Source: Candidatus Dormiibacterota bacterium
Lineage (GTDB): Bacteria; Chloroflexota; Dormibacteria; CF-121
Length of the DNA: 64,000 bases
Direction: 5' to 3'
Assembly (NCBI GenBank): GCA_035544955.1
Contig: DASZZN010000041.1
Location: 1-64,000, forward strand
The position numbers and the translations under genes are program-made. Below the pieces are notes generated by a model, which searched no databases, had not been told where the DNA came from, and was given only the letters and a program-made list of their open reading frames with translations. Position 1 is the stretch's first letter. The number at the start of each line of letters is the position of its first letter. Positions 42,455 through 58,289 of the stretch are shown here, piece after piece.

Positions 42455-42832
42455 GTGGCCCCGACGCTGTTCCTCGTCGAGGACGAACTCATGTTCGCGC
42501 AGCGCCTCCGAGCGGCTGCCGGGCGGCTCGGAATTCCGCTCCAGGCGGTCAGTCCGTCCGAGGCGCGAACCCGTGCCTGGGACCGTGACCAGGTGGTTGT
42601 CCTGCAGGCCACGCTGAGACCAGAACAGCAGCTCGAGCTGATCGATCATCTAACAGGGCGCGACCCGGCCCCGGTCGTGATCGCGGTCACCGGCCACCTG
42701 GAGACCGAGCTGCGTCAGCGGCTCAAGGCGCGAGGTGTCATCCTGGCTGCCCACTCCGGGATGGATCGCGTGCTGGCCCGCGCACTCGGCGTCAGTGTCC
42801 CGGGTGATGCGGCGCCGCGTCCCCGGACGTGA
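42455..42832 (+). CDS. Pseudo-receiver (response-regulator fold without phospho-acceptor)
   Basis: 125 aa from a GTG at 42455. TLFLVEDELMFAQRLRAAAGRLGIPLQAVSP resembles the first strand (with the ED pair) and helix of a receiver domain, and VVIAVTGHLETELRQRLKARGVI the later strands. The strand that should end in the phosphorylated Asp reads VVVLQATLRPEQ, so this Asp is missing. No output domain. Overlaps the 3' end of the convergent permease gene by 41 bp. Confidence 0.5.
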   Translation: MAPTLFLVEDELMFAQRLRAAAGRLGIPLQAVSPSEARTRAWDRDQVVVLQATLRPEQQLELIDHLTGRDPAPVVIAVTGHLETELRQRLKARGVILAAHSGMDRVLARALGVSVPGDAAPRPRT

Positions 42833-44006
42833 GCTCGCCGCCCTCATGCCCGGAATGATCGTGATGGGCGTGCGCCTCCGCCGGCATCTCCATCATCCGT
42901 AACATCTCGAGCCCGCCGGTTCGGAGAAACCGCCAGCCAAGCACAGCCATCACGACCAGAAAAATCACGTTCAATACCGTGGTGTAGTTCAGCGTCGGAC
43001 CGCTCTGTAGCGCGATCACCGCATGGTGCGCCGGAACAATACCCAGCATCTTGAACAGCAGGCCAATCAGCAGTCCACCAAGCGCCATCGCCGCGTAAGA
43101 GACACCGAGCAGATAGAGCGCCATGCGACGGCCGTAGTACTTCCGGTAGATGTTGAGGATGGGGATGATGATCAGGTCGGCGAAGATGAAGGCGATCACG
43201 CCGCCGAAACTGATGCCGCCGTTCCATAAGACCGCGGCCAGGGGCACGTTGCCGACCGAGCAGACAAAGCTCAGCAACGAGATCACCGGACCGATGAGCG
43301 GACCCCAGATCTCGGAGAGGACCGGATGGCCGGTCAGGAAGAATCCCTGCCAGAAGCTGTTCGGCACCCAGACGGCCAGCGCCCCGGCGATCAACAGGCC
43401 GAGTCCAATGTCGGTCCAGACCGAGGTCACGTCCATCCAGAAGTTGTGGCTGATCGCGGTGAATGCCCGACCACTTACGAGGCGGCGGAGGAAGGGTCCC
43501 TCGGTGATCGCCATGTCCATCGCGGCGTGGCCTTCCATGCGGCCACGCAAGCCACGCTCGGCATGCCGCCGCGCCTCCTCGACCATAGGGTGGCGCAGGG
43601 TCCAGCGAAAGAGCAGCGCTAGGATCACGATCATCAGGATGCCGCCCGCGAATTCGGCACCGAGGAAGGGCCAGCCCAGGAGGATCAGCAGAATCAGGCC
43701 GAGTTCAAAAACCAGGTTGGTCGAGGCGAACTCGAACACGATGGCCGCGGGGAAACTTGCCCCTTTGAGGAAGAGCGAACGAGCGATCGCCACGGCGGCA
43801 TAGGAACACGACGAGGACGCCGCACCGAACAGGGTGGCGAATCCGAGGCTGCGCGGAGAGTCCGAGCCGAGGGTGCGGGCGACGGCCTTGCGTGAGACCA
43901 GGGTCTGGACGACGGACGACAGGATGAAACCCAGTGCCAGGGGCCATAAGACCTCCCAGAGCATGTCGAAGGCCGAGTTAAGCGCTGACAGGATGGCCTG
44001 CATCAT
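42792..44006 (-). CDS. DUF318/ArsP-type permease with His-rich tail
   Basis: 404 aa, about eight to ten membrane segments. Family motifs: LFGAASSSCSYAAVAIARSLFLKGASFPAAIVFEFASTNLVFELG (Cys in the membrane) and FVCSVGNVPLAAVLWNGGISFGGVIAFIFADLIIIPILNIYRKYYG. The C-terminus HAHHDHSGHEGG...HHPGH is a cytoplasmic or periplasmic metal-binding tail. PF03773 permeases include the organoarsenical exporter ArsP; the His tail and the Ni/Co transporter next door point to metal-linked transport, by inference. Confidence 0.8.
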   Translation of the reverse strand: MMQAILSALNSAFDMLWEVLWPLALGFILSSVVQTLVSRKAVARTLGSDSPRSLGFATLFGAASSSCSYAAVAIARSLFLKGASFPAAIVFEFASTNLVFELGLILLILLGWPFLGAEFAGGILMIVILALLFRWTLRHPMVEEARRHAERGLRGRMEGHAAMDMAITEGPFLRRLVSGRAFTAISHNFWMDVTSVWTDIGLGLLIAGALAVWVPNSFWQGFFLTGHPVLSEIWGPLIGPVISLLSFVCSVGNVPLAAVLWNGGISFGGVIAFIFADLIIIPILNIYRKYYGRRMALYLLGVSYAAMALGGLLIGLLFKMLGIVPAHHAVIALQSGPTLNYTTVLNVIFLVVMAVLGWRFLRTGGLEMLRMMEMPAEAHAHHDHSGHEGGELTSGDAAPHHPGH

Positions 44007-44033: not shown

Positions 44034-45113
44034 CTAGTGGCGGAGTCCCGCCGACCATCGTTCCTCGACGTGTAGGCCGCGGTAGATCAACAGGGCGGCG
44101 GCCCAGGTGACGATGAAGGCACCGACGATGACGAAGCCCATGACACCGAGGTCCATCCCGCGGATCGCATCCCAGGCTCCACCGCGCAGGTTGAGTTGCT
44201 GCACGAGCACCTGGCTCAGCTCGAAGAGACCAACGAAGAGCGCGACAAAAACCGAGAGCGCCGTGATCGTCAAGTTATAGAAAACCTTGCGCACCGGGTT
44301 CGAAAAGGCCCACCCATATGCCTGGGACATGAAGGCGCCGTCGGCGGTATCCATCAACGACATCCCCGCGGCGAAGATCAGTGGCAGCGAGACCAGGGCG
44401 TAGAGCGGAATGTGCTGAGCCGCGGCGCCGGCCGAAATCGCCAGAAAAGAAATCTCGGAGGCGGTATCGAAGCCCAGCCCGAAGAGGAAACCGACCAGGT
44501 ACATCTGCCAGCTGTGGGTGATCAACTTGAAGAGCCGGCCGAAGAGTCGCGTCAACAGGCCACCGGCGATCAACTGATGCTCGAGGGATTCGCGGTCATA
44601 CGCGCCGGCCCTCATCCGCCGGAACAAGCGAACGATGTCGAGCAGGATGATCAGGTTCAGGATCCCGATCAGCACCAGGAAGATGCCCGACACACTGGTG
44701 CCGATCAGACCACCGACGTTCTTCAGCTGGCCGTTGGCGCTGACGACGTTGGTGACCACGAATTGGGTGGCGAAGCCGAGCGCAAGCGCGATCAAGAACA
44801 CGACCGTCGAGTGACCGAGCGAGAAGAAGAACCCGACGCCGAGCGGCTTCTTTCCTTCCTGGAGGAGCTTGCGCGTCGTGTTGTCGATCGCCGAGATGTG
44901 ATCGGCGTCGAACGCGTGGCGTAGGCCGTACGCGTAGGCCAGGCCCCCCAGGCCGAGCATCACGGGAAAGCGCGGCGCGACCAGGAGCAGCATGATGCCC
45001 CACCCAGCCAGGTGCAGCAGGGCGACGCTGCCGAAGAGGCCGGTCAGTCGCCAGGAGACGGAGGTCATCGAGGTCGTCCGCCAGCTTCGAAAAACCGCGC
45101 GCGCCGTCGCCAT
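44034..45113 (-). CDS. NiCoT-family nickel/cobalt transporter
   Basis: 359 aa, eight membrane segments. The selectivity motif YGLRHAFDADHISAIDNTTR in the second helix defines the NiCoT family; GVGFFFSLGHSTVVFLIAL and GLGFDTASEISFLAISAGAA are the second and third signatures. High-affinity Ni2+ and/or Co2+ uptake in the inner membrane. A perfect 21-bp palindrome lies 20 bp upstream of the start, directly following the DUF4242-like gene. Confidence 0.9.
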   Translation of the reverse strand: MATARAVFRSWRTTSMTSVSWRLTGLFGSVALLHLAGWGIMLLLVAPRFPVMLGLGGLAYAYGLRHAFDADHISAIDNTTRKLLQEGKKPLGVGFFFSLGHSTVVFLIALALGFATQFVVTNVVSANGQLKNVGGLIGTSVSGIFLVLIGILNLIILLDIVRLFRRMRAGAYDRESLEHQLIAGGLLTRLFGRLFKLITHSWQMYLVGFLFGLGFDTASEISFLAISAGAAAQHIPLYALVSLPLIFAAGMSLMDTADGAFMSQAYGWAFSNPVRKVFYNLTITALSVFVALFVGLFELSQVLVQQLNLRGGAWDAIRGMDLGVMGFVIVGAFIVTWAAALLIYRGLHVEERWSAGLRH

Positions 45114-45132
45114 CCGAGCACCAACTATATCT

Positions 45133-45153
45133 TATTGCGAATCGTTCGCAATA
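45133..45153 (-). promoter_or_regulatory. 21-bp perfect palindrome, likely metalloregulator operator
   Basis: TATTGCGAA-TCG-TTCGCAATA: 9-bp perfect arms with a 3-nt centre, lying between the DUF4242-like stop (45163) and the NiCoT start (45113). Size and symmetry match operators of the Fur/Nur/Zur family. It lies where a repressor would block transcription entering or starting before the transporter gene. A Fur-family gene is present at 57052, but no link is shown. Confidence 0.65.
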
Positions 45154-45162
45154 GCGAACCCG

Positions 45163-45474
45163 TTACGGTTCCATCACGATCGCAGGGCCCGGATTCTCCA
45201 GATCAGGTCCCATATCGGGCGGTCCCAGGACCGTCGTGATCTCACCGATCCGGCCGGACGGAAGAAGAGCGGTACTCATCAAATAGCGGACCGCGTCAGC
45301 GGTTGGTGCTTCCACCGTGCAGACGAGCCGTCCATCGTCGCGCCCGACCGAGGCGGTCACGACCCGCGCGATGTTGGCGAGGCGGTCGTTCGCCGACTTG
45401 AGCACGCGGGCGACACGGGCGACTTCCGACCGGCCAACGCCCGGGAGCCGGATTTCGACGATGTAATGCGGCAT
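45163..45474 (-). CDS. DUF4242-like small protein (possible nickel-binding, ferredoxin-like fold)
   Basis: 103 aa from the internal ATG at 45474 (a longer frame reaches 45543). MPHYIVEIRLPGVGRSEVARVARVLKSAND and LVCTVEAPTADAVRYLMSTALLPSGRIGEITTVLGP follow the strand-helix-strand pattern and wording of DUF4242 proteins such as the nickel-binding SCO4226 of Streptomyces. The relation is by eye and modest. Position next to the NiCoT transporter and its operator supports a nickel/cobalt link. Confidence 0.5.
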   Translation of the reverse strand: MPHYIVEIRLPGVGRSEVARVARVLKSANDRLANIARVVTASVGRDDGRLVCTVEAPTADAVRYLMSTALLPSGRIGEITTVLGPPDMGPDLENPGPAIVMEP

Positions 45475-45539
45475 GTCCCGATCATTGCTCACCGACGACT
45501 GAGGAACATCGGCGAAAGCACGCACTGGGTACGTAGTGG

Positions 45540-47849
45540 TCACGCGTCATGGAGTACCCAATTCGCGATCTGAACCCGGGAATTGATGCCGAGCTTGTTG
45601 AGGATGTTGGAGATGTGTGTTTCGACGGTGCGTTCCGATAGAAAGAGCCGAGACGCGATCGCTTTGTTGCTAAGACCCTCAGCGACCATTTGAGCGACCT
45701 GTTGCTCGCGCCTGGCCAGGGGACTGGCGGCTACTTCGGCGCTGGCACGGTCCTCCCCGGCGCGCTCTTTCTTCTCGCCCAGGGCGTAAGCGATGGCGGC
45801 CGTCCGGCTCATTCGTTGACCGGCCTCCACCTCCGCTGCGAACGCCGGCCCACCGAGGACCGCGATCGCCGACTCGCGCGCCTGCGCGAGGAGTGGCACC
45901 AGCAAGCCGCTGAGTTGAACGCCACTCTCTGTACGCACGGTCTCGGCGGCCCCGATCAGCCGCGCCGCGCGTTGCGCGTCTCGCGTCGCCGCCGCCTGGC
46001 AGCCGAGGCCAAGGAGGAGCGAGAACATGGCTACGCGGTCGTCGAGATCCCGCGCAATCTTCACGGCCTCCTCGAGAGCTGGCTTGGCGTCGGTGGCGCG
46101 ATCGCCTAAGAGGCTGGTGAAACCGACATTCATCAGGTTGAAATCCAACATGTAGAGATCGCCACGCTCGCGGCAGGATCGCGCCGCGTCGAGGAAGACC
46201 GCGTGCGCCCGCTCCATCTCACCTGATGCAAGCGCGTTGAACCCTTCGGCGAAGGTGGCGGCGGCGGTGGCGTCAGGATCACCCAACGCGCCGGCCATGC
46301 GGAGGGCCTCCCCGAGTATCGACGTGGCCGCCGGGACATCGCCCTCCAGATCGCGAACGATGGCCGTCACGGCCAAAACGCGCACCAGCATTGTCGAATT
46401 GCCGGCCTCACGTGCCTTGATTTCGGCATCCGCGAGGATGGGCCGGGCGCTCGCCGGATCCACCTGCAACATCGCCAGGAAGCCACGCGAAAAGAGCGCC
46501 TGGGCGAGCGGCTCTGGGTCACCGGCTCGATGTGCGAGGAATGTATCCAGCCAGTGGACGCCCTCGCTGGCAGCCCGGGTCGACCAGTACCAGCCCAGGG
46601 AGCCGACGATCGAGATGCCAAGCGCGTACTGGCCGGCGCGGAGGCAGTACTGAAGTGCGGCGCGGATGTTGTCAACTTCTTGATCGGCCCACTCGAGCCA
46701 TTCGCGGAGCCTGAGCGACTCGGCCCCAACGCGGGCTCGGCGGCCCATCTCGGCGTAGAAAGCGACAAAGGCGTCCCGTACCTCGTCCTCTGCCCCTCCC
46801 TCCCGAAGCTTGAGCAAGGCGTACTCCCGCATCGTTTCGTGTAGCCGGTATCGAGCCGCCTCACTCGAGCCAGCCCTGGTCACGAACGATTTATCCACGA
46901 GTCCGGCGAGGAGGTCTACGGCGGCATCCCGAACAGCGTCAGTCGCACAGACCGCCTCAACCGCTTCGAGCCCAAAGTCTCCCGCGAACACCGCCAAGCG
47001 CTGAAGCATGCGCCGTTCAGGTTCAGTCAAGAAGTCGTAACTCCAGTCGATCGTCGCCCGCAGCGTTTGCTGGCGAGGACGCGCAGCACGGCTGCCGCCG
47101 GTCAGGAGGGCGAAGCGGTTGGTCAGCCTTGCCAAGAGTTGTTCCACGCCGAGCGTCCTCAGTCGCACGGCGGCCAGTTCGAGGGCCAGCGGCATGCCGT
47201 CGAGATGGCGGCAGATCTCGATGAGGGCCCCTTGATTTTGCTCGGTGATCTGGAGGTCGGCGCCGGCGACGGTCGCTCGTTCGAGCAGGAGGGCGATCGC
47301 TTCCGATTGGGCAAGGCGTTCGCGTGACTTGCCGTCTTCGCTTGTCGGCAGGGCGAGTGGGGGAACGGTGATCACCTGCTCACCCGCGATGCCGAGCGGC
47401 TGCCGGCTCGTCGCCAGAAGGCGAACGCCGGGCGCCTCCTTGAGGATGACGTCGGCGAGAACCGCCACCGGATCGAGCAGGTGCTCACAGTTGTCGAGGA
47501 CGAGCACGGCCTCGCGCGATGAGAGATACGCGATCAGCAACGACGTCGGCCACTGCCCCGATTGGTCAAGGAGACCGAGCGCGGTCATCACCGCTTTGGG
47601 CACGAGCTGCGCGTCCCCAAGACCGGCCAGGTCGATGAAGAAAGCGCCGTCACGGGCCGTTCGCCGCAATTCAGCCGCGGCGCGCAGGCCGAGCCGGGTC
47701 TTGCCCACGCCGCCTGGCCCGACAAGCGTGACCAGCCGAGTCTTCCCGAAGGCGGCCTTGACCTCGGTCAGCAGCCGGCGCCGTCCGATAAAGCTGGTCA
47801 GCTCGACCGGCAGGTTCCCGATCGAGCTGACGCGTTCGGCGATCGCCAT
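45540..47849 (-). CDS. LuxR-family transcriptional regulator with NB-ARC-type ATPase and TPR-like repeats
   Basis: 769 aa from ATG 47849. N-terminal ATPase: [41 protein letters not shown] (Walker A), [14 protein letters not shown] (Walker B), [16 protein letters not shown] (sensor) and [15 protein letters not shown] (GLPLA-like). Residues about 330-690 are Ala-rich helical repeats (TPR-like). The C-terminal LuxR HTH is [45 protein letters not shown]. Signal-transducing ATPase regulators of this build sense small molecules; the target may be the serine hydrolase gene 10 bp upstream. Confidence 0.88.
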
Positions 47850-47859
47850 CGCGTCCAGT

Positions 47860-49371
47860 CTAGGTCGGGCGGCGGATCGCCAACACCAGCCGAACGATGC
47901 CGCTCGCCAAAAGCAGAAGGGCAAAGACGAAGAGCCACTGGCCAATGTCGACGTTGAGCAGGTTGCCGAACCACGGCGCGCCCAAGGCCGCAGGAACGCC
48001 TAGGAGGATGGCGACCGGTACCCAGAACTCGCGCCAGATGGGAACGACCCATTGGAAGAACACAGTCCGGACCCGCGCCAGCCGGCCGGTCCGCACCTTC
48101 CGCCGTCCGCGGACGATGCGCGCGAGGTTGCGAACGGCGAGGGCGATAACTAGCGCAGCGACCGCGTCGAAGACTAGGTACAGTCCAGCCAACGTGCCGG
48201 CGAGGGGCCGGTTAGTCAGCAGGCTGGCGACGTTGTCCGCGATGATGTCGATCCGGGCCAGGGTTTCGTACAGGATGGACTCCACGTTGGTTAGGAGTAT
48301 CACGCCCCAGTTCTCGGCAGGCAGCATGATGACTATCGAGTGCATGCTGGCGGCGCTGCCGTTGTGCCAGATGGTATCGCGTAGATTGCTGCGTGGCCCG
48401 TTAAACCAGCCCATCGCATAGGACCCACCCTGGGCGCTTAAGCCAGCCGCAGCGGCGGGCCGATGCAACTCCGCGACCCCGGCGGCAGAGAGGAGGCTCG
48501 CTCCAGTCGACGGGTATTGCCCATTGTTGAGCTGGGCCGCGACAAAGTGGCTCATGTCTTCGGCCGACGACATCAGAAAGCCGGCCGGGACCGTGTCCGA
48601 GCGAAAACCAGCTCCCTGAGCATGGGCCTGCTGCATGCCGAACCATAGGGTCGACGCCGACGCCAGGCCGTCACGCTTTGCGGCGTCGAGGGAGGCGAAG
48701 CTGTGCTCCATGCCCAGCGGGGCGAAGATGTGCTCCTGGACATAGTCGCCGTATCCCTGGCCCGAGACGGTCTCGACCAGCCGGCCGAGCACCTCATAGT
48801 TGGAGTTGGAGTACTCGTACTGCCGACCAGGCTGGGCAGACGGGGTCACTGTCACCAGGGCCCGAACCTGGGCTTCTAACGAGCTGACCGGCTCGCTGAG
48901 GGGCGTGATGCCAGCCGAGGTAGGGATGCCGCTGGTCTGGTTGAGGAGGTGTCGAGTCGTCATCGCAGCCGAGGCATGCGGATCAGCAAGGCGAAATTCG
49001 GGGAGGTACCGCTGGACCGGAGCGTCGAGGTCGACCTTCCCGGCTTCAGCCAGCTGCAGGACCGCCACCGCCGTGAATGACTTGCTGATCGATCCGATGA
49101 TGAATGGCGTCTGCGGCGTAACCGGCCGTCCCCCGGAGTCGGCCCGGCCGAAACCCTGCAGATGGGTCACCTGGGCCCCGTGCACGATGCCGAGAGCGAG
49201 CCCCGGAATGCGCGCCTCGTTGACCTGGTCCTGCACATAACGGTCGACAGCCGCATAGTCCGGGCCCGAGTCGGCGAAGACCGGGGTGGCGGCAGCCGTC
49301 AAGGGGATGAGCGCGCCCAGAGCCGCTAGTCCCGCTGTCCATCGTCGGCGGAGATTTTGAAGGGTGCTCAC
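47860..49371 (-). CDS. Serine hydrolase of the beta-lactamase/PBP4-like family, membrane-bound
   Basis: 503 aa. Signal ([20 protein letters not shown]), then a class-C beta-lactamase-like domain: [17 protein letters not shown] (SxxK, Ser94/Lys97), [16 protein letters not shown] (YxN), and [16 protein letters not shown] near the KTG position (HxG type). The last 130 residues hold about three membrane segments. Likely a peptidase/esterase acting on cell-wall or D-amino compounds outside the membrane. GTG start overlapping the stop of a 64-aa gene (GTGA), so translated together with it. Confidence 0.85.
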
Positions 49372-49562
49372 GCCTGCGGCACCTCCCGCCCCGACCCTCC
49401 TGCGGAAGGTGCGAGGTGGATTCCCAGGCCGTACTTGATCACGGCATCAATGTGGTCGTCGACTCTCCACTGCGCCTCGGATGCCCACACTTGCTCGATC
49501 AGCTCGGCCAACTGCGCGTCTAGATGTCCCGTCGGAGCTTGGGTCGTTTCCTGGCGACGCAT
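49368..49562 (-). CDS. Small protein translationally coupled to the serine hydrolase
   Basis: 64 aa. ATG at 49562 with AGGAGG about 9 nt upstream, the best ribosome site of the area; the longer frame to 49766 lacks one. HLDAQLAELIEQVWASEAQWRVDDHIDAVIKYG looks helical and amphipathic; no domain recognised, no membrane segment. Its start codon lies in an 11-bp inverted repeat. A regulator or partner of the serine hydrolase is possible; function unknown. Confidence 0.55.
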   Translation of the reverse strand: MRRQETTQAPTGHLDAQLAELIEQVWASEAQWRVDDHIDAVIKYGLGIHLAPSAGGSGREVPQA

Positions 49563-49622
49563 TTTTCTCGCCTCCTGTGTCTTGATTGAGGCCAACGTAG
49601 GTCTGTGAGAAGCGAGAAAAAT
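49561..49622 (-). promoter_or_regulatory. Inverted repeat covering the start codon of the 64-aa gene
   Basis: Perfect 11-bp arms ATTTTTCTCGC (49561-49571) and GCGAGAAAAAT (49612-49622). In the minus-strand mRNA the 3' arm GCGAGAAAAAU includes the AU of the AUG start and its spacer, with AGGAGG just before it in the 40-nt loop, so pairing would block initiation. A translation switch (thermosensor-like) or a two-half-site operator would both fit. Confidence 0.5.
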
Positions 49623-49900
49623 CCGGGTCAGTACTGATCTACTACGTAATCCGCGGCCTAACGGGCCGGCCACACAACGTCGCGGCGAAAGAATGGAGGG
49701 CCCCGCAGTCTGCGCCCGTCGCTGGCACTCCCCCTCCCCGACTACGTAGATCGTCCGTGGCTCCACGGATGGCGCCCACCGTTTTCGACCCTAACCTCGA
49801 AACCAACGTGTTCATCGCTCGAAGGGCGTCTGCGCCGCAAGCCCAATTTCGTGCGTCTGATGGGCGGAATTGCCGAATTGATAGCTCGGGAGGTAAACAA
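49563..49900. other. Divergent intergenic region
   Basis: 338 bp between the 64-aa gene and a plus-strand lipoprotein gene. Besides the inverted repeat above it holds two TACGTA-centred sites in opposite orientation (around 49638-49652 and 49741-49756, GATCTAC...TACGTA and TACGTAGATC), possibly operator halves. GGGAGGTAAACAA before 49901 is the ribosome site of the next gene. No convincing gene. Confidence 0.35.
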
Positions 49901-50386
49901 ATGCGCAAGTTGATCATCGTTCTGTTCGCGGGCGTGGCCGCGGTGATGTCAGCGTGTGGGCCATCCCAGTCGACCGCAGGGCCTGCCGCTACACCAAGTC
50001 CATCTGGCTCCGTGACCACGCAGCAAATCGCTGCGCTGGCAGAGCAGGTGTTTCCGAAGCTGGCGCAGGATGGGCGCTACGGGGTCTGCGGTCTCGACGG
50101 GAACGTCAGCGCATGCCCCTACACCGACCGGCTGAAGGCTCGCCTAACTGAGTTGCGCCAAACGCTCGCCCGCGCCCAGAATCCGTCAGACACGCGCGTC
50201 GTTACGGCCGAGATCATGAGCCCGGACGCTGGCATCGCCCACGTCAAGCTGTTCGGCGGTCGTCAAACGGTGGACCTCTGGGTTGTGCAGCGGAATCACG
50301 CGCTCCTCGTCGATGACTCCGTCTGCGCCGGCCGGAAAGAGACGAGCATCTACGCGACGTTCGTCGCTTGCGGTGCGGCCGCCTAG
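49901..50386 (+). CDS. Small lipoprotein of unknown function
   Basis: 161 aa, ATG with GGGAGG upstream. Signal peptide with lipobox VMSACGP, a Ser/Pro/Thr linker (to about residue 38), then a small domain with four Cys (VCGLDGNVSACPY, DDSVCAG, FVACG) likely forming two disulfides. VKLFGGRQTVDLWVVQRNHALLVDDSVC suggests a beta-sheet fold like NTF2/lumazine-type extracytoplasmic domains; no firm family. Confidence 0.65.
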   Translation: MRKLIIVLFAGVAAVMSACGPSQSTAGPAATPSPSGSVTTQQIAALAEQVFPKLAQDGRYGVCGLDGNVSACPYTDRLKARLTELRQTLARAQNPSDTRVVTAEIMSPDAGIAHVKLFGGRQTVDLWVVQRNHALLVDDSVCAGRKETSIYATFVACGAAA

Positions 50387-50410
50387 GCATCGCGCACCTG
50401 AGGAGACAAG

Positions 50411-50644
50411 ATGATGGCCACGACTACGCGGATCCAGGAGCATCCGTTTCAACTCCCGCATCTGCTGGCGATTGTCGTCGTCGCACTTGCTCTCGTACTC
50501 GGCTTCCTGGCCATCGATGCGCTTACGTCGATCGGCTTGGTAACCCGCACCGTAGCGGTGGAAACCGAGACGTTTCATGTCGTGGCCAAATACACACCGC
50601 TGAAGCTTGTCGCACCCTCGCCCAGGGCACACGCCGCGAACTGA
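50411..50644 (+). CDS. Small single-pass membrane protein
   Basis: 77 aa; GAGGAGACAAG precedes ATGATG. One strong membrane helix (HLLAIVVVALALVLGFLAIDAL), short cytoplasmic head, about 40-residue extracytoplasmic tail (VAVETETFHVVAKYTPLKLVAPS). No family recognised. It lies between the lipoprotein and a strong terminator and so ends that transcript. Confidence 0.5.
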   Translation: MMATTTRIQEHPFQLPHLLAIVVVALALVLGFLAIDALTSIGLVTRTVAVETETFHVVAKYTPLKLVAPSPRAHAAN

Positions 50645-50666
50645 TCTAGCCCACTTCCCTTCCCTC

Positions 50667-50701
50667 GAGGCGCCGTTCCCCCCGGCGCCTCTTTCTTTTT
50701 T
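50667..50701 (+). terminator. Rho-independent terminator
   Basis: Perfect 8-bp stem GAGGCGCC/GGCGCCTC (50667-50674, 50684-50691) with a C-rich loop followed by TTTCTTTTTT. Ends the transcript of the lipoprotein and small membrane protein genes. Confidence 0.85.
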
Positions 50702-50792
50702 CGGTATCCGCTGCGTGATTCCTCGGATGTTTGGCCCAGCCCTCCGGCCGGACGATCAAGGTGCGATCAAACCCACTCGGAGGGAAGCAAAA

Positions 50793-51698
50793 ATGAATCC
50801 GCAGAGCTCGACTCGAAAGCGATCGGTGTTTCGTTCGCTGACCTCGACTCGCACGCGACGGCTTGGTGTAGCCGTCCTCCTGGTCGGTGTTGTTATCGGG
50901 GCAACTGGCATCGTCCGCAATAGCCTGTTGTCGTCGCTCGGGAGCCAGACGGCGGTCGCCGACTCGGGTGGTTCAACGCCCGACCGAAGCCCAATCACCA
51001 CCACGCCGAGCGCCACGCCGACGACTGCGCCAACCGATTCGCCGACGGCTGTTCCGACGGTTGCGCCGACGGCCCGGCCAACGGCAACGCCAGCCCCGCC
51101 GCAGTCGGTGTTCACCATCCCGGTTCCGGTGATCCGCCAAACCATGGTGCTCGACTGCGAAACGGCCGCGTTGCAAATGGGGCTGGCGACCTACGGCTAT
51201 TACTACAGTCAGGACGCGCTCTTCGCGCTCGAAAGTCCTGACCTGCGGGCGCCGGTCATGGGACCGAGTCACACCGTCCTTCGTTGGGGTGATCCCTACC
51301 GCCAATTCGTCGGCAACGTCAACGGCAGCGACTGGATCCCAACGGGATACGGCGTGTACTACCCGGTGATCACGGCGATCGCGCAGAGCAAGGGCCTGAC
51401 TAACGCCATCGGTGGTGAGGGGTATGCACCGGACACCGTCTATCAGGCGCTCGCCACCGGCCACGCGGTCCAGGTCTGGATCGAGACCAACTGGATCCGC
51501 ACGTTCGTTGGAACGTGGACCGCCTGGGACGGCCGCGCCGTGAGGTATTCGTATGCCGAGCACTCGGTCGTCTTGAGTGGGGTATCCCCGACTCAGGTCC
51601 GGGTCAACGATCCGCTGCATGGCACCCAGTACTGGGTCAGTAAGGCGCTCTTCGAAACCAACTGGGCCGACTTCAACAACATGGCAGTGATCTTCTGA
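50793..51698 (+). CDS. Secreted C39-like cysteine peptidase (Peptidase_C39_2)
   Basis: 301 aa from the ATG at 50793 (AGGGAAGCAAAA upstream). One N-terminal membrane/signal helix (GVAVLLVGVVIGATGIV), a Pro/Thr linker of TPTTAP-type repeats (about residues 70-105), then the peptidase-like domain: IPVPVIRQTMVLDCETAALQMGLATYG (catalytic Cys), YPVITAIAQSKGLTNAIGGEG, HAVQVWIETNW, YAEHSVVLSGVS (His) and QVRVNDPLHGTQYWVSKALF (Asp). Family PF13529 includes enzymes that cleave double-glycine peptides or of unknown role. No bacteriocin or transporter gene nearby. Confidence 0.82.
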   Translation: MNPQSSTRKRSVFRSLTSTRTRRLGVAVLLVGVVIGATGIVRNSLLSSLGSQTAVADSGGSTPDRSPITTTPSATPTTAPTDSPTAVPTVAPTARPTATPAPPQSVFTIPVPVIRQTMVLDCETAALQMGLATYGYYYSQDALFALESPDLRAPVMGPSHTVLRWGDPYRQFVGNVNGSDWIPTGYGVYYPVITAIAQSKGLTNAIGGEGYAPDTVYQALATGHAVQVWIETNWIRTFVGTWTAWDGRAVRYSYAEHSVVLSGVSPTQVRVNDPLHGTQYWVSKALFETNWADFNNMAVIF

Positions 51699-51752
51699 TG
51701 GCCGTCCTACCCCGCTGGGGCGAGGAGCTGGGCCAACGGCCAGCCCTTCGAA

Positions 51753-52202
51753 TCAAGGCGATGGCGTTGGGGCAGGCTGATATTCGACGATGACTTTGGT
51801 GATCACCCTCGGGTCGAAGGGGATGTGATCGGCGGCCACGAACTCGCCCTGCACCACGTGCGGCCCGGGCGCAAACGGCTGCATGGAGACGTCTTGTGAC
51901 AGTTGATAATTCATCGAGATCAGGCGGCCGTCGATGGAGAGATGGATGTGGCCGGTATCTGGGGTCAGGTTCTTGGTCGTGACGTCGACGATGCGGGCCC
52001 CGGCCAGGTGGAATTCCACGTGAAGCGTGGCGGTCGTCACCACGGTGTTGGCAGACGGCTGCGCGATCGTGAGGGTCGCCGTCGACTTGGGCCGCGCGCT
52101 CGCACTCGGGCTCGGCGTCGGCGTTTGGCCGATCAGCGGCAGACTGCAGGCGGAGAGGGTGACAATCGCGCCGGTGACCGCGGCGAGCAGCCGCTTGTTC
52201 AT
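51753..52202 (-). CDS. Lipoprotein, DUF4399-like
   Basis: 149 aa. Signal with lipobox TLSACSL, Ser/Pro linker, then a beta-sandwich-like domain: TLTIAQPSANTVV, GHIHLSIDGRLIS and PGPHVVQGEFVAADHIPFDPRVITKVIVEY. The GHIHLxxDG and HVVQGEFVAxDHxPF pattern resembles DUF4399/CHRD-like periplasmic domains. Last gene of a four-gene operon, its start overlapping the CopCD stop by 4 nt, so probably part of copper handling outside the membrane. Confidence 0.65.
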   Translation of the reverse strand: MNKRLLAAVTGAIVTLSACSLPLIGQTPTPSPSASARPKSTATLTIAQPSANTVVTTATLHVEFHLAGARIVDVTTKNLTPDTGHIHLSIDGRLISMNYQLSQDVSMQPFAPGPHVVQGEFVAADHIPFDPRVITKVIVEYQPAPTPSP

Positions 52203-54163
52203 TTGATGGTCTCCTCGAAGCTAGCCTGGTAGGTGTCGCCATCCGCCGACGTAGCGGTGATATCGAACCGCCAGCGTCCAGCGCCGAGCGCACCTTGGCC
52301 GATGAAGTGTCCAACCTTATCGAAGCGCGATGCCTGCAGGTCAAGGGTGGGTCCAGTTGCGGGCGTTGCGCTGATGACCGTCCCATCGGTCATTGGGAGC
52401 TCGGCGTTTCCCTGGAAGAACGTGGCGTGCACGGCATTGTTGCCCGCCGTCCCCGGATCGACATAGAGCTGCAGCGACCGACCCTTCGACAGCTCAACGG
52501 TGTAGACCGTCGGCAGGCCGGCGATGACCTGTGCGCTGATGCGCTCCGGTGGAGCCGCCGTCGTAACCATCAGGGGCACCTCGGCCGAATCGAGGCCATG
52601 TTCGACCACCACCGTCACGCTCCATCGACCCGCCAGTGCGACGGTCGGTGCGGTCGCACTGTAGGAGCCATTGCCTTTCGGCTTGAGCTCGAGCGTCGAT
52701 TCTCCAACATTGGGGCGCCCGGGGAACGCGAACCGCAGCGCGACCCTTGTGGCGTCGACCGGCCGGCCGGTGTCGTAATCGCGGATGCTGACGGTGAAAC
52801 GGTTAGAGCCCGGATATCCGGGTATGGCGATCAGTCGCACCCTGACCGTGGTCCCCTGATCGTGGCCATCGACCACGACCTGCTGCGGAGGTAACGCGGC
52901 CGTGGCCGATGTATAGCTCGGCGGCGGCAGGGCGGTAAGCACCGCCGCCACCCCGATGACGACAGCCGCGACGGCGACCTCGAACCGGCCGACCCGGTGC
53001 AGACCGGTCAGGCTCCATTCGGCCCTCGGCACGTTGCGGTAGCGGTTGATCGCCCCCAGCCCCGCGAGGACGACGAAGAGGCCGACCTTGACCAGCACCA
53101 GACCGCCGAACACCGTCGACCAGAGGCGCGATAATGCTCCGACCTCATCGATGGCCCGCAGGGCGCCGGTGACCCCGACCGCGACCAGCGCGAACGCGGC
53201 GACGAAGGAGAATCGTCGGACCGCGCGCGCGGCGAGGTCGCGCGGCAGACCGCGCACACCGATGAGCAACGCGCTCAGTCCGCCGATCCAGACGCAAAAG
53301 GCCGTCAGATGAGCCCATTGAGCCGGGAACATCAGCCAGGCCACATGGCTCGCGCTGGCGTGCGTGGTCAGGACGTGGGTAAAGATGGCGACCAATGCGA
53401 GGGCGCCCGCCGCGCCGAGCACGACGCGATTGTTGGGGGCGCGCCATCGCCAGGCCACGGCCAGGGCGACCCCAGCGAGCGCGATGGGAACGACCTGTTC
53501 GAGCAGGTTTCCGCCGAGCGAGGTGGAGACGAAGTCTCCCAAGGTGACCGACGCCGCCTCCCGTTCCGCCTCGGCGGCGACCGCGAGGCCGATCACTGCC
53601 ACACCGACGCCGGCGCCCGCCATCGTGAGCAGCCGTCGTGACGGAGCCCGGAAGGCGAACAATGAAATCCAGGTCCCACCCAGCAAGACAGCGAGACCCA
53701 CGTAAAAAAGCCAGCGGCCGGCAATGCCGAGTGGCGACGGCGGGGGCGTCGACGGTGCCGCCGCACCGCCAGGCGGGGATGAGCCCGTTGGCGACGCACC
53801 GACCCCGAAGGCAAAGAATCCACCGGCCACGTGACCATCGACGGCCGAGACCGTCGTCCAGGTGACGGTGTAGACGCCATTGGGGAGAGACGGCAACGCG
53901 ACGGTCAGCGTGGAGCGGTCACCCGGCACAGGGCGCACGCCACTGCTTTCCAGCCGCCGGCCACCGACATTGAGGACGTGAATAACCGACAGGCGTGGGT
54001 CCGGCCACTCCGTGAAGGTGATGCTCACCTGCGTGGGGGCACGCTCGAGGTTCGCGCCATCGGCCGGCGTCGACGAGCTCATCAGCGCGTGCGCGTCGGC
54101 GCCCATGCCGGCGCTGAGCACACCGGTCAGCGAGAGCAGGACCGCGGTAACGAATCGGCGCAC
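52199..54163 (-). CDS. CopC-CopD fusion with C-terminal YtkA-like domain
   Basis: 654 aa. After a signal peptide, residues about 25-125 are CopC (AHALMSSSTPADGANLERAPTQVSITFTEWPDPRLSVI, VTWTTVSAVDGHVAGGFFAF; the mature N-terminal His and the DGH His bind Cu(II)). Residues about 150-410 form eight membrane helices of CopD (WLFYVGLAVLLGGTWISLF, HVAWLMFPAQWAHLTAFCVWIGGLSALL, GLVLVKVGLFVVLAGLGAINRYR). The C-terminus (VSIRDYDTGRPVDATRVALRF, GRWSVTVVVEHG) is a YtkA/FixH-like domain. Copper uptake across the membrane. Confidence 0.9.
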   Translation of the reverse strand: MRRFVTAVLLSLTGVLSAGMGADAHALMSSSTPADGANLERAPTQVSITFTEWPDPRLSVIHVLNVGGRRLESSGVRPVPGDRSTLTVALPSLPNGVYTVTWTTVSAVDGHVAGGFFAFGVGASPTGSSPPGGAAAPSTPPPSPLGIAGRWLFYVGLAVLLGGTWISLFAFRAPSRRLLTMAGAGVGVAVIGLAVAAEAEREAASVTLGDFVSTSLGGNLLEQVVPIALAGVALAVAWRWRAPNNRVVLGAAGALALVAIFTHVLTTHASASHVAWLMFPAQWAHLTAFCVWIGGLSALLIGVRGLPRDLAARAVRRFSFVAAFALVAVGVTGALRAIDEVGALSRLWSTVFGGLVLVKVGLFVVLAGLGAINRYRNVPRAEWSLTGLHRVGRFEVAVAAVVIGVAAVLTALPPPSYTSATAALPPQQVVVDGHDQGTTVRVRLIAIPGYPGSNRFTVSIRDYDTGRPVDATRVALRFAFPGRPNVGESTLELKPKGNGSYSATAPTVALAGRWSVTVVVEHGLDSAEVPLMVTTAAPPERISAQVIAGLPTVYTVELSKGRSLQLYVDPGTAGNNAVHATFFQGNAELPMTDGTVISATPATGPTLDLQASRFDKVGHFIGQGALGAGRWRFDITATSADGDTYQASFEETIK

Positions 54164-54164
54164 G

Positions 54165-54830
54165 CTAGCGGGCCGCCGCCCTCCTGCCGCGAGTCAGCGT
54201 GATGATCAGGGCCACGGTCCCCAGCGCACCGAGTACGATGCCGGCGATCGCCAGGTTGCGCGCCAGCTCGGCGTCATTCTTTGCCGTCCCCTGGGCCGCG
54301 GTAATCCTGGGATCGATCCGGTCGAGCTTCTGGGCGATTTGCCCGCGGCTTGGATCCTGTGCGGGAAACTCGACGGCCGTCGGCTCCTTCACCGCATCAA
54401 AGGTGGTGGGGCTGGACGTGAACGATTGGTCGACGGCCTGGCCCTTGACGGTGCCCGTGAAATGGAACGTGTAATTGCCGGCTCGGGTGGGGATCAGGCT
54501 GGCCAGATACTCTCCCTGCATGCCGAGCCCGGTATCCGGATCGTAGGTCGCCGTCAGGCTGAGCGCGGGCATCTTCTGCGCCTGGTAAATCACCTCGACC
54601 TTGAGGGTATCCCCCAGGTCGCTGACCGGGTTGCCCTTCGAGTCTTTGAGCAGGAACTGAATCGCGTTCTGCTCATCGGCATAAGCTGGCTCGTGCAGCC
54701 AGCCAACCGTGAACTGGTAGGCGCCGACGGTGCGCACCTCGTGAGCCGACGCGGGGACGACGGCGGCCAGCGCGACGACGGTCGCGACACCGGCGGCCGA
54801 AAGCAGACGGAACGGAATGAACCTGCGCAT
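54165..54830 (-). CDS. Periplasmic YtkA-like protein with C-terminal membrane anchor
   Basis: 221 aa. Signal ending PASAHEVRTVG, so a mature N-terminal His as in CopC-like copper proteins; YQFTVGWLHEPAYADEQNAIQFLLKDSKGNPVSDLGDTLKVEVIY and TRAGNYTFHFTGTVKGQAV form the beta-sandwich. C-terminal helix AIAGIVLGALGTVALIITLTRGRR. It is one base upstream of the CopCD gene. Probably a copper-binding partner; exact role unknown. Confidence 0.72.
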   Translation of the reverse strand: MRRFIPFRLLSAAGVATVVALAAVVPASAHEVRTVGAYQFTVGWLHEPAYADEQNAIQFLLKDSKGNPVSDLGDTLKVEVIYQAQKMPALSLTATYDPDTGLGMQGEYLASLIPTRAGNYTFHFTGTVKGQAVDQSFTSSPTTFDAVKEPTAVEFPAQDPSRGQIAQKLDRIDPRITAAQGTAKNDAELARNLAIAGIVLGALGTVALIITLTRGRRAAAR

Positions 54831-54887
54831 GATGCTCTCCTTGACGGATGATGTTTCATGCCGCGCCCGAGCGCGGCCGACGTCACG

Positions 54888-55490
54888 TCAGATCGAGCGG
54901 GGCGGACCGCGACGCCGGTACCATCGCTGGTCGCGAAGGTCGACCGGCCATACCGGGGAGGGAAGCGCTCGAATGGCCAGCGGCCTGGCCGGCACGCGTA
55001 CGTGAACGGCGAAGATGACCCGCATCGCCTCTGCGCCCAGGGCGAGGTACGCCCGCAGCCAGGCCACCACCCACGCCGCCAGCGCCGCCAGGGGGAGTTG
55101 GACGCAGATGGCAAGGATGAGCATCGCCGCGACGTCAGGCGTCATCCGGACCGACAGCGCCTCCAGCGTCTCCTTGCTGACAAAGAGCGAACACTGAACC
55201 ATGGCCAGCACCAGAAACGTGCCGCGCAGCCCCGTCGTCGAGACCCGGCGATTGCCAAGGATCAGGCGGATCGACACCACCGCGATCAGGGCAAGGGCGA
55301 GTGCGACCAGCAACGAGAGCGCGCTCAGCGAGAAGATCCTCGGGTAGTACGCGTGACTGCCCTGGGACTGGACTTTCCAGGCCATCGATGGACCGTAGCG
55401 GAGGGCGTAGGCCGCGGCATGACCGACCGGCTCGAGCAGTGCCGCGAGCACGAACGTGGCAAACAGGCGCCCCGTGGGGAATCGCCTCAT
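54888..55490 (-). CDS. Membrane protein of unknown function in the copper operon
   Basis: 200 aa, about four membrane segments (FATFVLAALLEPVGHAAAYALRYG, LSLLVALALALIAVVSIRLIL, FLVLAMVQCSLFVSKETLEALS, MLILAICVQLPLAALAAWVVAWL) with His in the first and Cys in the third, and a basic Arg-rich cytoplasmic tail. First gene of the operon ahead of the YtkA-like and CopCD genes; no family recognised. A 7-bp inverted repeat ACCCGCG/CGCGGGT lies in its upstream gap (about 55505-55550). Confidence 0.65.
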   Translation of the reverse strand: MRRFPTGRLFATFVLAALLEPVGHAAAYALRYGPSMAWKVQSQGSHAYYPRIFSLSALSLLVALALALIAVVSIRLILGNRRVSTTGLRGTFLVLAMVQCSLFVSKETLEALSVRMTPDVAAMLILAICVQLPLAALAAWVVAWLRAYLALGAEAMRVIFAVHVRVPARPLAIRALPSPVWPVDLRDQRWYRRRGPPRSI

Positions 55491-55559
55491 CGCCCGGAGT
55501 ATAACCCGCGTTCCGTAAGAGATTGATCAGAGTTCACCGCGGGTAGCAATACTGATCGC

Positions 55560-56267
55560 GTGAGCAAGAAAGGCAAGCGAAAGAGGGTCGCCAGCGGCTC
55601 TCAGCCCGGGCCAGCACGGGCCGCTCAGGGACGAACGAATTCGGGGCGAGTTGGGACGCCACGCCGACGGACCAAGCCGAATCGCCGCCGGCTGGCCTTC
55701 ATAGCCGGGACGATCGCCGCGCTCCTCATCCTGGCGGCGTTGATCGTCGTTAACCAGCTGCCCAACAACAGCCTTACACTCCTGGCGGGAACGGACGAGC
55801 AGGCGCAGGGGCAGGCCGTCGACGCCATCAGTTGCGACACCTCAGAGCAGGTCGTGTACCACATCCATGCCCATCTGGCGGTGTACACGAATGGCAGGCC
55901 ACGCATCATCCCGCAAGGCATCGGCATCGTTCCGCCAACGCAGACGGTTCAGACCTCGGCGGGCCCCTTCGTGGTCTCGGGCACGTGCTTTTACTGGCTG
56001 CACTCCCACACGGCGGACGGGATCATCCATGTCGAGTCACCAAGCCAGCGGGTTTACACGCTGGGCAACTACTTCGATATCTGGAACCAGCCGTTGAGCG
56101 CGACGCAGGTCGGGCCGGCACACGGGACCGTCACCGCCTACGTCGACGGCCGGCCCTTTAACGGGGATCCACGATCGATCCCCCTCAACGCGCACACGCT
56201 GATTCAGCTCGACGTTGGCGGCACGTCACCCGGTCCGCAGCCCTTCACTTTCCCCGCCGGCTTGTAG
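55560..56267 (+). CDS. Conserved His-rich membrane-anchored protein of unknown function
   Basis: 235 aa from a GTG. Very basic N-terminal 45 residues, one membrane helix (LAFIAGTIAALLILAALIVV), then an outer domain with HIHAHLAVYTNG (His 101, 103, 105), GTCFYWLHSHTADGIIHVES (His 148, 150, 157; Cys) and YFDIWNQPLSATQVGP. Proteins with this HxHxH...HSHTADGIIH pattern occur widely in soil bacteria without assigned function; the His clusters look like a metal site, fitting its place beside copper and iron genes. Confidence 0.7.
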   Translation: MSKKGKRKRVASGSQPGPARAAQGRTNSGRVGTPRRRTKPNRRRLAFIAGTIAALLILAALIVVNQLPNNSLTLLAGTDEQAQGQAVDAISCDTSEQVVYHIHAHLAVYTNGRPRIIPQGIGIVPPTQTVQTSAGPFVVSGTCFYWLHSHTADGIIHVESPSQRVYTLGNYFDIWNQPLSATQVGPAHGTVTAYVDGRPFNGDPRSIPLNAHTLIQLDVGGTSPGPQPFTFPAGL

Positions 56268-56275
56268 CCTGGTCG

Positions 56276-57025
56276 TTAGGCGCCGCTCACATGCAAAAGG
56301 CGTCCGATTCCGTAGCCCGCCGCGGCGGAGACCATGCCGATGATCGTCATCTGAAGACCGCTGATTCGCCAATCGCCAACGAGCGTCAGCGCCTTGTAGG
56401 CGCCGACGGCAAACAGCACCCCGGCACACAGCGGCACCGCCATGATGGTGGCCGCGGTCACGGAGATCCCAAAGAGCGGTACGAACAGAAACGGGATCAG
56501 TGGAATCAGCGAGCCGATCAGGGTCGAGAACCCGGTGACCAGCGCACGGCCAACCGCGTTCGTACCGGCACCGGGCATGAGATGGAGCTCATCGCGCATC
56601 ATCGTTTCCACCCACACCTTCTTGTCGCTGGTGATCTCTTTCACGACGCGCTCCAGCACCTCGCCATGCAGGCCCTTGTCGCGGAAGATCTGGCGCACCT
56701 CCTCCGTCTCGACGTCGGGCAGCTCCTCGACTTCTTGTTGCTCTTTAGCCAGCATCGCCATGTAGTAATCCCGCTCCGCCAGGGTGGCGGTATAGATCAC
56801 GCCGGCCATGGCAATCGACTCCGAGAAGGTGGCGGCTAGCGCCGCCGCCAGGATGATCCGCAGCTGCGCCGTCGCGGCGGCGACGCCGAGCACCAGCCCC
56901 AGGACATTGACCAGGCCGTCCTGGCCGCCGAGGATGATGTCGCGAAGGGACCGGCCAAGCCCGCCTTTGTCGGCATCGGACTCGTGCAGCGGTTGCGTCT
57001 GGCGGACAGGCTCCGGCTCAGCCAT
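56276..57025 (-). CDS. VIT1/CCC1-family Fe/Mn transporter
   Basis: 249 aa, five membrane segments. DIILGGQDGLVNVLGLVLGVAAAT and FSESIAMAGVIYTATLAERDYY are the first two helices of the VIT1/CCC1 family; the acidic cytoplasmic hairpin (EQQEVEELPDVETEEVRQIFRDKGLHGEVLERVVKEITSDKKVWVETMMRDELHL) is the metal-binding domain; GFSTLIGSLIPLIPFLF follows. Exports Fe2+/Mn2+ from the cytoplasm. It starts just after the Fur-type gene in the same direction, so Fur control is likely. Confidence 0.88.
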   Translation of the reverse strand: MAEPEPVRQTQPLHESDADKGGLGRSLRDIILGGQDGLVNVLGLVLGVAAATAQLRIILAAALAATFSESIAMAGVIYTATLAERDYYMAMLAKEQQEVEELPDVETEEVRQIFRDKGLHGEVLERVVKEITSDKKVWVETMMRDELHLMPGAGTNAVGRALVTGFSTLIGSLIPLIPFLFVPLFGISVTAATIMAVPLCAGVLFAVGAYKALTLVGDWRISGLQMTIIGMVSAAAGYGIGRLLHVSGA

Positions 57026-57051: not shown

Positions 57052-57492
57052 CTAGCGAGTCCGCGACGCTTTGGCCTGGCAGCGCGCGCAGCGGCCGTGC
57101 ACGACGAGATCGGCGTTACTCACCACGAAGTCATGTTCGTCCGTGATGTGGTGGAGCACCGGCACCATGTGGTCGCCCTCGATGTGCAGCGTCGAGCCGC
57201 ACTGGTCGCAGACCAGGTGGTAGTGATCGGTCCCCTCTTCGGCTAGCTCGTAGTAGGCGCGGTCCCGGATCCGGGTCTCTTTGACGAGACCCAGCTCTTC
57301 CAGCACCTCGAGGCAGCGGTAGATCGTCGCCAGGTTGAAGCGGGGATATTGCCGGCGGATCTGGGCCAGGATGTCCTCGGCGCTGAGGTGCTTCTTGCTC
57401 TGCCGCAGCGTGTCCCAGACCAGCTGGCGCTGCATCGTCAGCCGGTATCCCGAGGTATGCAGCGCCTCGGTCGCCGACGGCCGTGCCTTCAT
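57052..57492 (-). CDS. Fur-family metalloregulator
   Basis: 146 aa. Winged helix: YRLTMQRQLVWDTLRQSKKHLSAEDILAQIRRQYPRFNLATIYRCLEVLEELGLV; dimer/metal domain HYHLVCDQCGSTLHIEG (metal ligands and first CxxC) and HGRCARC (second CxxC, structural zinc). Iron, zinc, nickel or peroxide sensing cannot be told apart by sequence. It sits between CtaG (its start overlaps the CtaG stop by 4 nt) and VIT1. Confidence 0.9.
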   Translation of the reverse strand: MKARPSATEALHTSGYRLTMQRQLVWDTLRQSKKHLSAEDILAQIRRQYPRFNLATIYRCLEVLEELGLVKETRIRDRAYYELAEEGTDHYHLVCDQCGSTLHIEGDHMVPVLHHITDEHDFVVSNADLVVHGRCARCQAKASRTR

Positions 57493-58289
57493 CGCCTCAT
57501 TGTGGCAGGGCTCTCGACCTCGACCATCGCTCGATCGCCAGCTGTGGCAGCTTTGTCATCGAGTCGGAAAAAGATCACCCAGATGGCCGCGAAGTAGATC
57601 AGGTTTCCCAGGCCGAACATGACCAGCCCGGCGATCAGCTGGTCGTCAAGCGGCGAGAGTGGCGTCACTCGCGGCGCGGCGGCATAGAAGGGATAGATCA
57701 CGACCGGCGAGAGGATGAACGCGAGGCCCAGGATCGTCGGGGGCACGCCGGCAAAGCCGAGGTACGCGATTTTTCCCATCATGCTCATGGCGTCCCGGCG
57801 GTCCGCCGGTACCAGGAGGGGCCACCAGAAAAGGACCCCCGCCGCGAGGAAGGTCATGTGCTCGAGGACATGCAGCGGTTCATTCCGCAGCGTCGCCTCG
57901 TAGAGGAACGGCAGGTGCCAGGCGGCCAGCACCAGGTTGAAGATCACGTTCGCCGCAAGCGGCGACACCCGGAACCGATTGAAGGCCCGCCATTGCGCAG
58001 GCATGCCGAGCAGCAACAGTGGCGGAACGATCATCGCCAGCAGCAGGTGCTGGAGCATGTGCAGGCTGAAGAGGTAGCGATCGCCACCGGTATCGATCGG
58101 GGAGGCCAGGGCGAGAAAGAGTGTCAGCAACCCGCCCGAGAAATACACCCGCGCGAGCGGCGACCACGATGCCGACGACCCCCTGCGCAACAACCAGATG
58201 TAGGCACCGGCCAGAGCCAGCAACCCGGCGAGTACGGTTGGCTCCCATGTCCAGCTGGTCAAGGTCAGGCTGGCATGAAGTGGATTCAC
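57489..58289 (-). CDS. ctaG: Cytochrome c oxidase assembly protein, caa3-type CtaG
   Basis: 266 aa, seven membrane segments (PF09678). Key stretches: YFSGGLLTLFLALASPIDTGGDRYLFSLHMLQHLLLAMIVPPLLLLGMPAQW with the His-rich helix, AWHLPFLYEATLRNEPLHVLEHMTFLAAGVLFWWPLL and DDQLIAGLVMFGLGNLIYFAAIW. Needed for copper insertion into caa3-type oxidase in Bacillus. Heads the CtaG-Fur-VIT1 run; links the copper cluster to respiration. Confidence 0.88.
   Translation of the reverse strand: MNPLHASLTLTSWTWEPTVLAGLLALAGAYIWLLRRGSSASWSPLARVYFSGGLLTLFLALASPIDTGGDRYLFSLHMLQHLLLAMIVPPLLLLGMPAQWRAFNRFRVSPLAANVIFNLVLAAWHLPFLYEATLRNEPLHVLEHMTFLAAGVLFWWPLLVPADRRDAMSMMGKIAYLGFAGVPPTILGLAFILSPVVIYPFYAAAPRVTPLSPLDDQLIAGLVMFGLGNLIYFAAIWVIFFRLDDKAATAGDRAMVEVESPATMRR

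Follow-up and report, generated by a model that had tools for sequence, protein, structure and literature searches.

A conserved Nur-box-like palindrome as the probable operator of a nickel/cobalt permease operon in a Dormibacteria genome

The palindrome described here lies just upstream of a gene for a nickel/cobalt permease, in the 64,000-nt stretch of DNA that was analysed (hereafter the window). The relevant features of the window, including those of a more distant gene group that encodes a candidate regulator, are as follows.

42792–44006, minus strand: ArsP_1-type permease with a His-rich C-terminal tail (PF03773), 27 bp after NiCoT
44034–45113, minus strand: NiCoT (NicO) nickel/cobalt permease, the presumed regulated gene (PF03824, 318 bits)
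45124–45129, minus strand: TATAGT, −10 hexamer of the predicted NiCoT promoter, 10 nt from the ATG (promoter scan)
45133–45153, no strand assigned: 21-bp palindrome TATTGCGAA-TCG-TTCGCAATA, with two perfect 9-bp arms
45135–45151, within the palindrome: core TTGCGA-N5-TCGCAA, conserved across the class
45146–45151, minus strand: TTGCGA, both arm of the palindrome and −35 hexamer of the predicted NiCoT promoter (promoter scan)
45163–45543, minus strand: SCO4226-like (DUF4242) ORF (PF14026, below cut-off)
56276–57025, minus strand: VIT-family transporter (PF01988), found between Fur and NiCoT in relatives
57052–57492, minus strand: Fur-family regulator, likely a repressor (PF01475, 91.5 bits; tree, alignment and synteny)
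57489–58289, minus strand: CtaG-like protein (PF09678), first of the Fur–VIT gene group, overlapping the Fur gene by 4 bp

Among the NCBIfam models, the NiCoT protein exceeds the cut-off of TIGR00802 (nico subfamily) and scores 436.2 against NicT, for which the cut-off is 450. The ArsP_1-type permease is a conserved partner of NiCoT in the genus, as judged from synteny, and the two genes are probably co-transcribed; possibly, this protein is a co-regulated metal permease. On the other side of the palindrome, the SCO4226-like ORF reaches only 23.9 bits against PF14026 (cut-off 28.5) and has no match in the 27 relative loci searched. A preliminary description of this DNA had taken this DUF4242-like neighbour as tying the site to nickel, a link that these two results do not sustain, and we rejected the ORF as a co-regulated nickel protein. 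It apparently adjoins the palindrome by accident and lies outside the conserved unit: about 11 kb (45163–56275) part the VIT gene (56276) from NiCoT (45113) in the window, which is not so in ten relatives, and this stretch, which includes a LuxR-type regulator, a serine-hydrolase-like ORF and an ORF for a large membrane protein, appears to be a lineage-specific insertion or rearrangement.

The palindrome itself is exactly as first reported, with two perfect 9-bp arms, except that it lies 19 bp, and not 20 bp, from the NiCoT ATG (45113, minus strand); the stop of the SCO4226-like ORF (45163) is 9 bp away. Among the 16 palindromes of the window that have perfect 9-bp arms (spacer 0–10), it alone has AT-rich arms, in a window of 65% GC. 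Its sequence is found nowhere else, either in the window or in the rest of the genome to which the window belongs (3.67 Mb, 52 contigs, 95.4% complete), even with up to three mismatches allowed. By itself, the symmetry is weak evidence: dinucleotide-shuffled windows contain 0.7 perfect 9-3-9 palindromes on average. A second perfect 9-3-9 palindrome, CGATGGAGAATGTCTCCATCG, is found at 30237–30257. The palindrome upstream of NiCoT rises above chance because it is conserved in relatives.

A NiCoT gene is present in 48 of the 61 genomes of the class, and a motif model was run on the upstream regions of all 48 genes. We used this model instead of a simple palindrome score, which misses or misplaces several sites (e.g. 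L014, L018 and L043). It places a core TTGCRA-N5-TYGCAA upstream of NiCoT in 45 of the 48 genomes and finds no clear site in the other three (G020, G023 and G031); the site is therefore not absent from relatives' NiCoT promoters, the outcome that the preliminary description had named as arguing against an operator. The core reads TTGCGA-acgat-TCGCAA in most of the window's genus, TTGCGA-ctnag-TCGCGA in much of family f3 and TTGCCA-ctaag-TGGCAT in family f4, with a mix of forms in family f2; the box of G021 (L046), whose right half is broken or lost, is still counted among the 45. Models trained without the tested family choose the same site in 47 of the 48 promoters, with p≤0.05 in 45 and p≤0.01 in 31, each p value resting on 100 dinucleotide shuffles so that the smallest possible value is 0.0099. 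The two arms also covary at two position pairs: pair 5/13 is complementary in 37 of 45 sites (largest of 1000 reshuffles, 36) and pair 7/11 in 36 (largest, 29), these sites coming from related sequences whose changes are not independent events. The other arm-to-arm pairs in the 45 sites stay within the range of the 1000 reshuffles. Note that the pair counts, like the −10 counts given below, drop the three sequences of 48 without a clear site (L020, L027 and L040) and keep L046. Outside the class, 80 loci minus 10 class members and 3 with a short upstream region left 67, mostly from Actinobacteria and each with at least 1 kb upstream; sites at p≤0.05 precede NiCoT in 42 of them, compared to 2 of 67 control windows taken 620–900 bp upstream of NiCoT. 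The palindrome is thus very probably a conserved operator, as judged from comparative sequence data.

The core is a palindrome of the form known as 6-5-6, with a left arm, in the direction of NiCoT transcription, that doubles as the −35 hexamer of the promoter predicted by the scan. In 44 of the 45 sites, the left arm is followed after 16–18 bp by a TAnnnT motif, for which the chance rate in shuffled sequences is 1.3%. The start codon follows 10 nt past the −10 in most members of the genus and 6–8 nt past it in most f3 genomes, so NiCoT transcripts probably carry little or no leader. The location of the −35 hexamer inside an operator arm implies repression by promoter occlusion. The published Nur-box, tTGCaa-N5-ttGCAA in the excerpted account of PMC3919588, likewise overlaps the promoter of the gene that it regulates, and the window site keeps all of its capital-letter positions and lies over a nickel-gene promoter (TTGCGA-16-TATAGT before NiCoT). 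This published box, also of the 6-5-6 form, is that of Nur of Streptomyces coelicolor and its sodF and nik genes. The match to this consensus and the retention of the box in relatives' NiCoT promoters bear out the earlier proposal of a Fur/Nur-type operator for NiCoT. There are differences from the S. coelicolor system: the arm has G instead of A at position 5, a NiCoT permease takes the place of an ABC transporter or sodF as target, and the exact site occurs once in the window's own genome. The operator of NikR in the Escherichia coli nik operon is also a palindrome through which nickel import is repressed at plentiful nickel; its sequence, given as GTATGA-N16-TCATAC in the excerpt concerned (PMC7055735), differs from 45133–45153 in both letters and spacing.

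The genome encodes only two Fur-family proteins, one in the window at 57052 and one on contig C44. Gene order in relatives and the Zur-like nature of the latter point to the former as the most likely reader of the NiCoT operator, in line with its earlier nomination as a possible binder. (i) In ten relatives (G002–G008, G011, G014 and G017), the gene order is CtaG, Fur, VIT, NiCoT, ArsP_1 permease and a zinc-finger gene, with the box between VIT and NiCoT; in G013, Fur alone, without VIT, lies upstream of NiCoT. (ii) In four f2 genomes (G028, G036, G038 and G048), Fur is divergent from NiCoT and the box lies in between, and in genus g10 of family f3 (G023 and G031), Fur is directly downstream of NiCoT and the box is degenerate. 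Altogether, 18 of the 48 genomes have Fur no more than 3 kb from NiCoT, in three arrangements (upstream, divergent, directly downstream); in the other 30, including the window's own genome, where the distance is 12 kb, it is not that close, contigs breaking there in some. In the tree, the 42 rows that include both the window Fur and S. coelicolor Nur (3EYY) form a group with a support of only 93/87 that depends on the midpoint root, which counts against the assignment; the window Fur stays outside the Zur group (97/94). The recognition-helix region of the window Fur is nearly identical to that of S. coelicolor Nur, NISTVYRTLELLEEL versus NLATIYRCLEVLEEL; the two systems further have in common a Fur-family regulator, a nickel uptake target and a Ni-superoxide dismutase (Ni-SOD) encoded by the genome concerned. 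Self-regulation of Fur finds no support in the window's own genome: the window has no further site, and Fur lies downstream of CtaG, with the 4-bp overlap. In f2, with the box placed between two divergent genes, autoregulation is possible.

From the computed site, conservation, promoter overlap, gene linkage and gene inventory, we infer binding, repression, metal identity and transcription start as follows. At high levels of its metal, most likely Ni2+, the Fur-family protein (57052–57492) would bind, as a dimer, the TTGCGA-N5-TCGCAA core, which spans the −35 and most of the promoter spacer, and the bound dimer would exclude RNA polymerase. When nickel is scarce, the dimer would be released and the NiCoT importer made from a transcript predicted to begin a few bases from the start codon at most, so near that there would be no room for a riboswitch or an attenuator. 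Ni-SOD would be the destination of the imported nickel. Altogether, we consider it likely that the palindrome serves the NiCoT(–ArsP_1 permease) operon as its operator, most likely bound by the 57052 Fur protein, with Ni2+ as the most likely metal.

The metal is the part of this scheme most exposed to an alternative. An et al., in 2009, reportedly located the nickel site of Nur at H70, H72 and H126. At these three positions, the aligned window Fur differs from S. coelicolor Nur in having E72, R74 and D128; its other ligands are those of a general Fur-type site (H35, H90 and H92), together with four structural cysteines (C95, C98, C135 and C138). Since the three histidines are missing, its metal is uncertain and we do not class it as a canonical Nur, although it most likely works like Nur. 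The same operator and regulator might then respond to cobalt, manganese, iron or zinc, a possibility to which family f3 also lends weight: NiCoT is present in 19 of its 21 genomes, with the box in most, and no Ni-SOD, urease or CbiC was detected in the 21, so that a nickel demand is unexplained there (the [NiFe]-hydrogenase large subunit exceeds the cut-off in 3 of 21). Against it stand the assignment of the permease to the NiCoT/NicT family and the gene inventory of family f1, to which the window belongs. Of 18 f1 genomes, 16 have a Ni-SOD and none has a detected urease, CbiC or [NiFe]-hydrogenase large subunit, which points to Ni-SOD as the main known nickel consumer. The lack of CbiC suggests little need for free cobalt and makes cobalt unlikely as the main metal. 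The window's own genome encodes a Ni-SOD that begins HCDLPCGIYDP after a short leader; its gene (contig C14, L264 2318–3126) lies alongside a divergent gene for an S26-type peptidase, the type of enzyme that matures Ni-SOD, and no box match with up to two mismatches was found near it. Target and gene inventory thus favour nickel as our best guess for the metal sensed and imported, and a different metal seems rather unlikely.

The four divergent f2 regulators and one acidimicrobial Fur (L251) also have the box between Fur and NiCoT and group with S. coelicolor Nur (100/97); unlike the window Fur, they retain all three nickel-site histidines. It is conceivable, as a tentative reading, that the f1 circuit is of the Nur type, with operator and DNA-reading helix retained and the nickel pocket replaced, the protein sensing either nickel via other ligands or another metal. 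A conserved His/Asp-rich C-terminal stretch of the f1 protein, LHIEGDHMVPVLHHIT, is a candidate for an alternative set of nickel ligands. If so, one class would hold both a classic sensor (f2, pocket kept, same kind of operator) and a re-tuned one (f1).

That the site serves a dimeric repressor of another family encoded elsewhere, TetR- or MarR-like for instance, is improbable: the form of a palindrome names no family by itself and most f3 and f4 genomes do not have Fur linked to NiCoT, but the three arrangements in which Fur is linked to NiCoT, the match to the Nur-box and the full set of Nur nickel-site histidines in the f2 regulators that diverge from the box all argue for a Fur-family reader. 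Still less probable is control of NiCoT by the second Fur-family protein, encoded on C44 alongside genes for an ABC-transporter ATPase and an ABC-3 permease. This protein, the sole other member of the family in the genome, has M. tuberculosis FurB as its closest PDB match and falls, in the tree, among the Zur proteins (97/94). Zur (S. coelicolor 3MWM, M. tuberculosis 2O03) belongs to the same Fur family as the window protein, and it is the C44 protein that has the Zur grouping and the zinc ABC neighbours, neither of which the window Fur shows. A role of Zur at NiCoT is made unlikely by its location next to an ABC-3 metal transporter, by the lack of perfect palindromes with 6–7-bp arms in the two nearby stretches examined, by the absence of a Zur-like gene near NiCoT among the matches listed and by the Nur-box form of the NiCoT box. 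Finally, a terminator hairpin of the SCO4226-like gene or a chance inverted repeat, as the nearby stop and the shuffling counts given above might suggest, can be set aside as extremely improbable: 44950–45350 contains no intrinsic terminator (GC-rich stem plus T-run), and the site is retained in relatives with different upstream genes and in 45 of 48 NiCoT promoters.

The preliminary description further saw in the palindrome a marker of a metal regulon. The exact core TTGCRA-N5-TYGCAA was sought in the 61 genomes; it occurs only at NiCoT in the window's own genome, where urease, [NiFe]-hydrogenase and CbiC were not detected, and at most twice per genome in same-genus relatives, the two matches away from NiCoT (G010 and G012) being inside an ORF that we take to be symporter-like. 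None of the extra core matches in the 17 stretches of relatives that were read was taken as an operator: in f1, f2 and f3, they overlap ORFs, such as the start of a presumably dapF-like gene or the symporter-like gene. In three f4 genomes (G054, G058 and G030; L168–L172), TTGCGACTTATTCGCAA repeats in near-identical flanks, apparently the end of an element or a repeat and not an operator. With two mismatches allowed, the window's own genome gives 5 forward and 6 reverse matches, versus 9 and 7 for a reversed control pattern, and the two best looser matches (C9 and C36) are inside ORFs. The box therefore looks like a one-operon switch and not a regulon marker, weaker sites being possible.

We found no Nur/NiCoT system and no nickel regulation reported for Dormibacter or Chloroflexi in the titles and abstracts searched. 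For nickel uptake in a soil lineage without cultured members, the locus offers a concrete operator and promoter together with a candidate regulator, and the comparison with other loci suggests that NiCoT genes are under Nur-box control in at least this class and Actinobacteria. The locus also makes the choice of metal by Fur-family proteins testable, as the same kinds of DNA site and target gene are found with and without the known nickel pocket.

Two minor observations concern the box. Among the 19 f3 promoters, the box is broken or lost only in L020, L027 and L046 (G023, G031 and G021), where the right half is TCCTGATA and not TCGCGATA; in all of f3, these three genomes alone encode a [NiFe]-hydrogenase large subunit that exceeds the cut-off, a coincidence that covers two genera only and may reflect shared ancestry. 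In the window, a second palindrome, GTTCGC-AATA-GCGAAC (45144–45159), overlaps the main one and has one arm in common with it; its outer hexamer is partly kept in the genus and is a possible third half-site.
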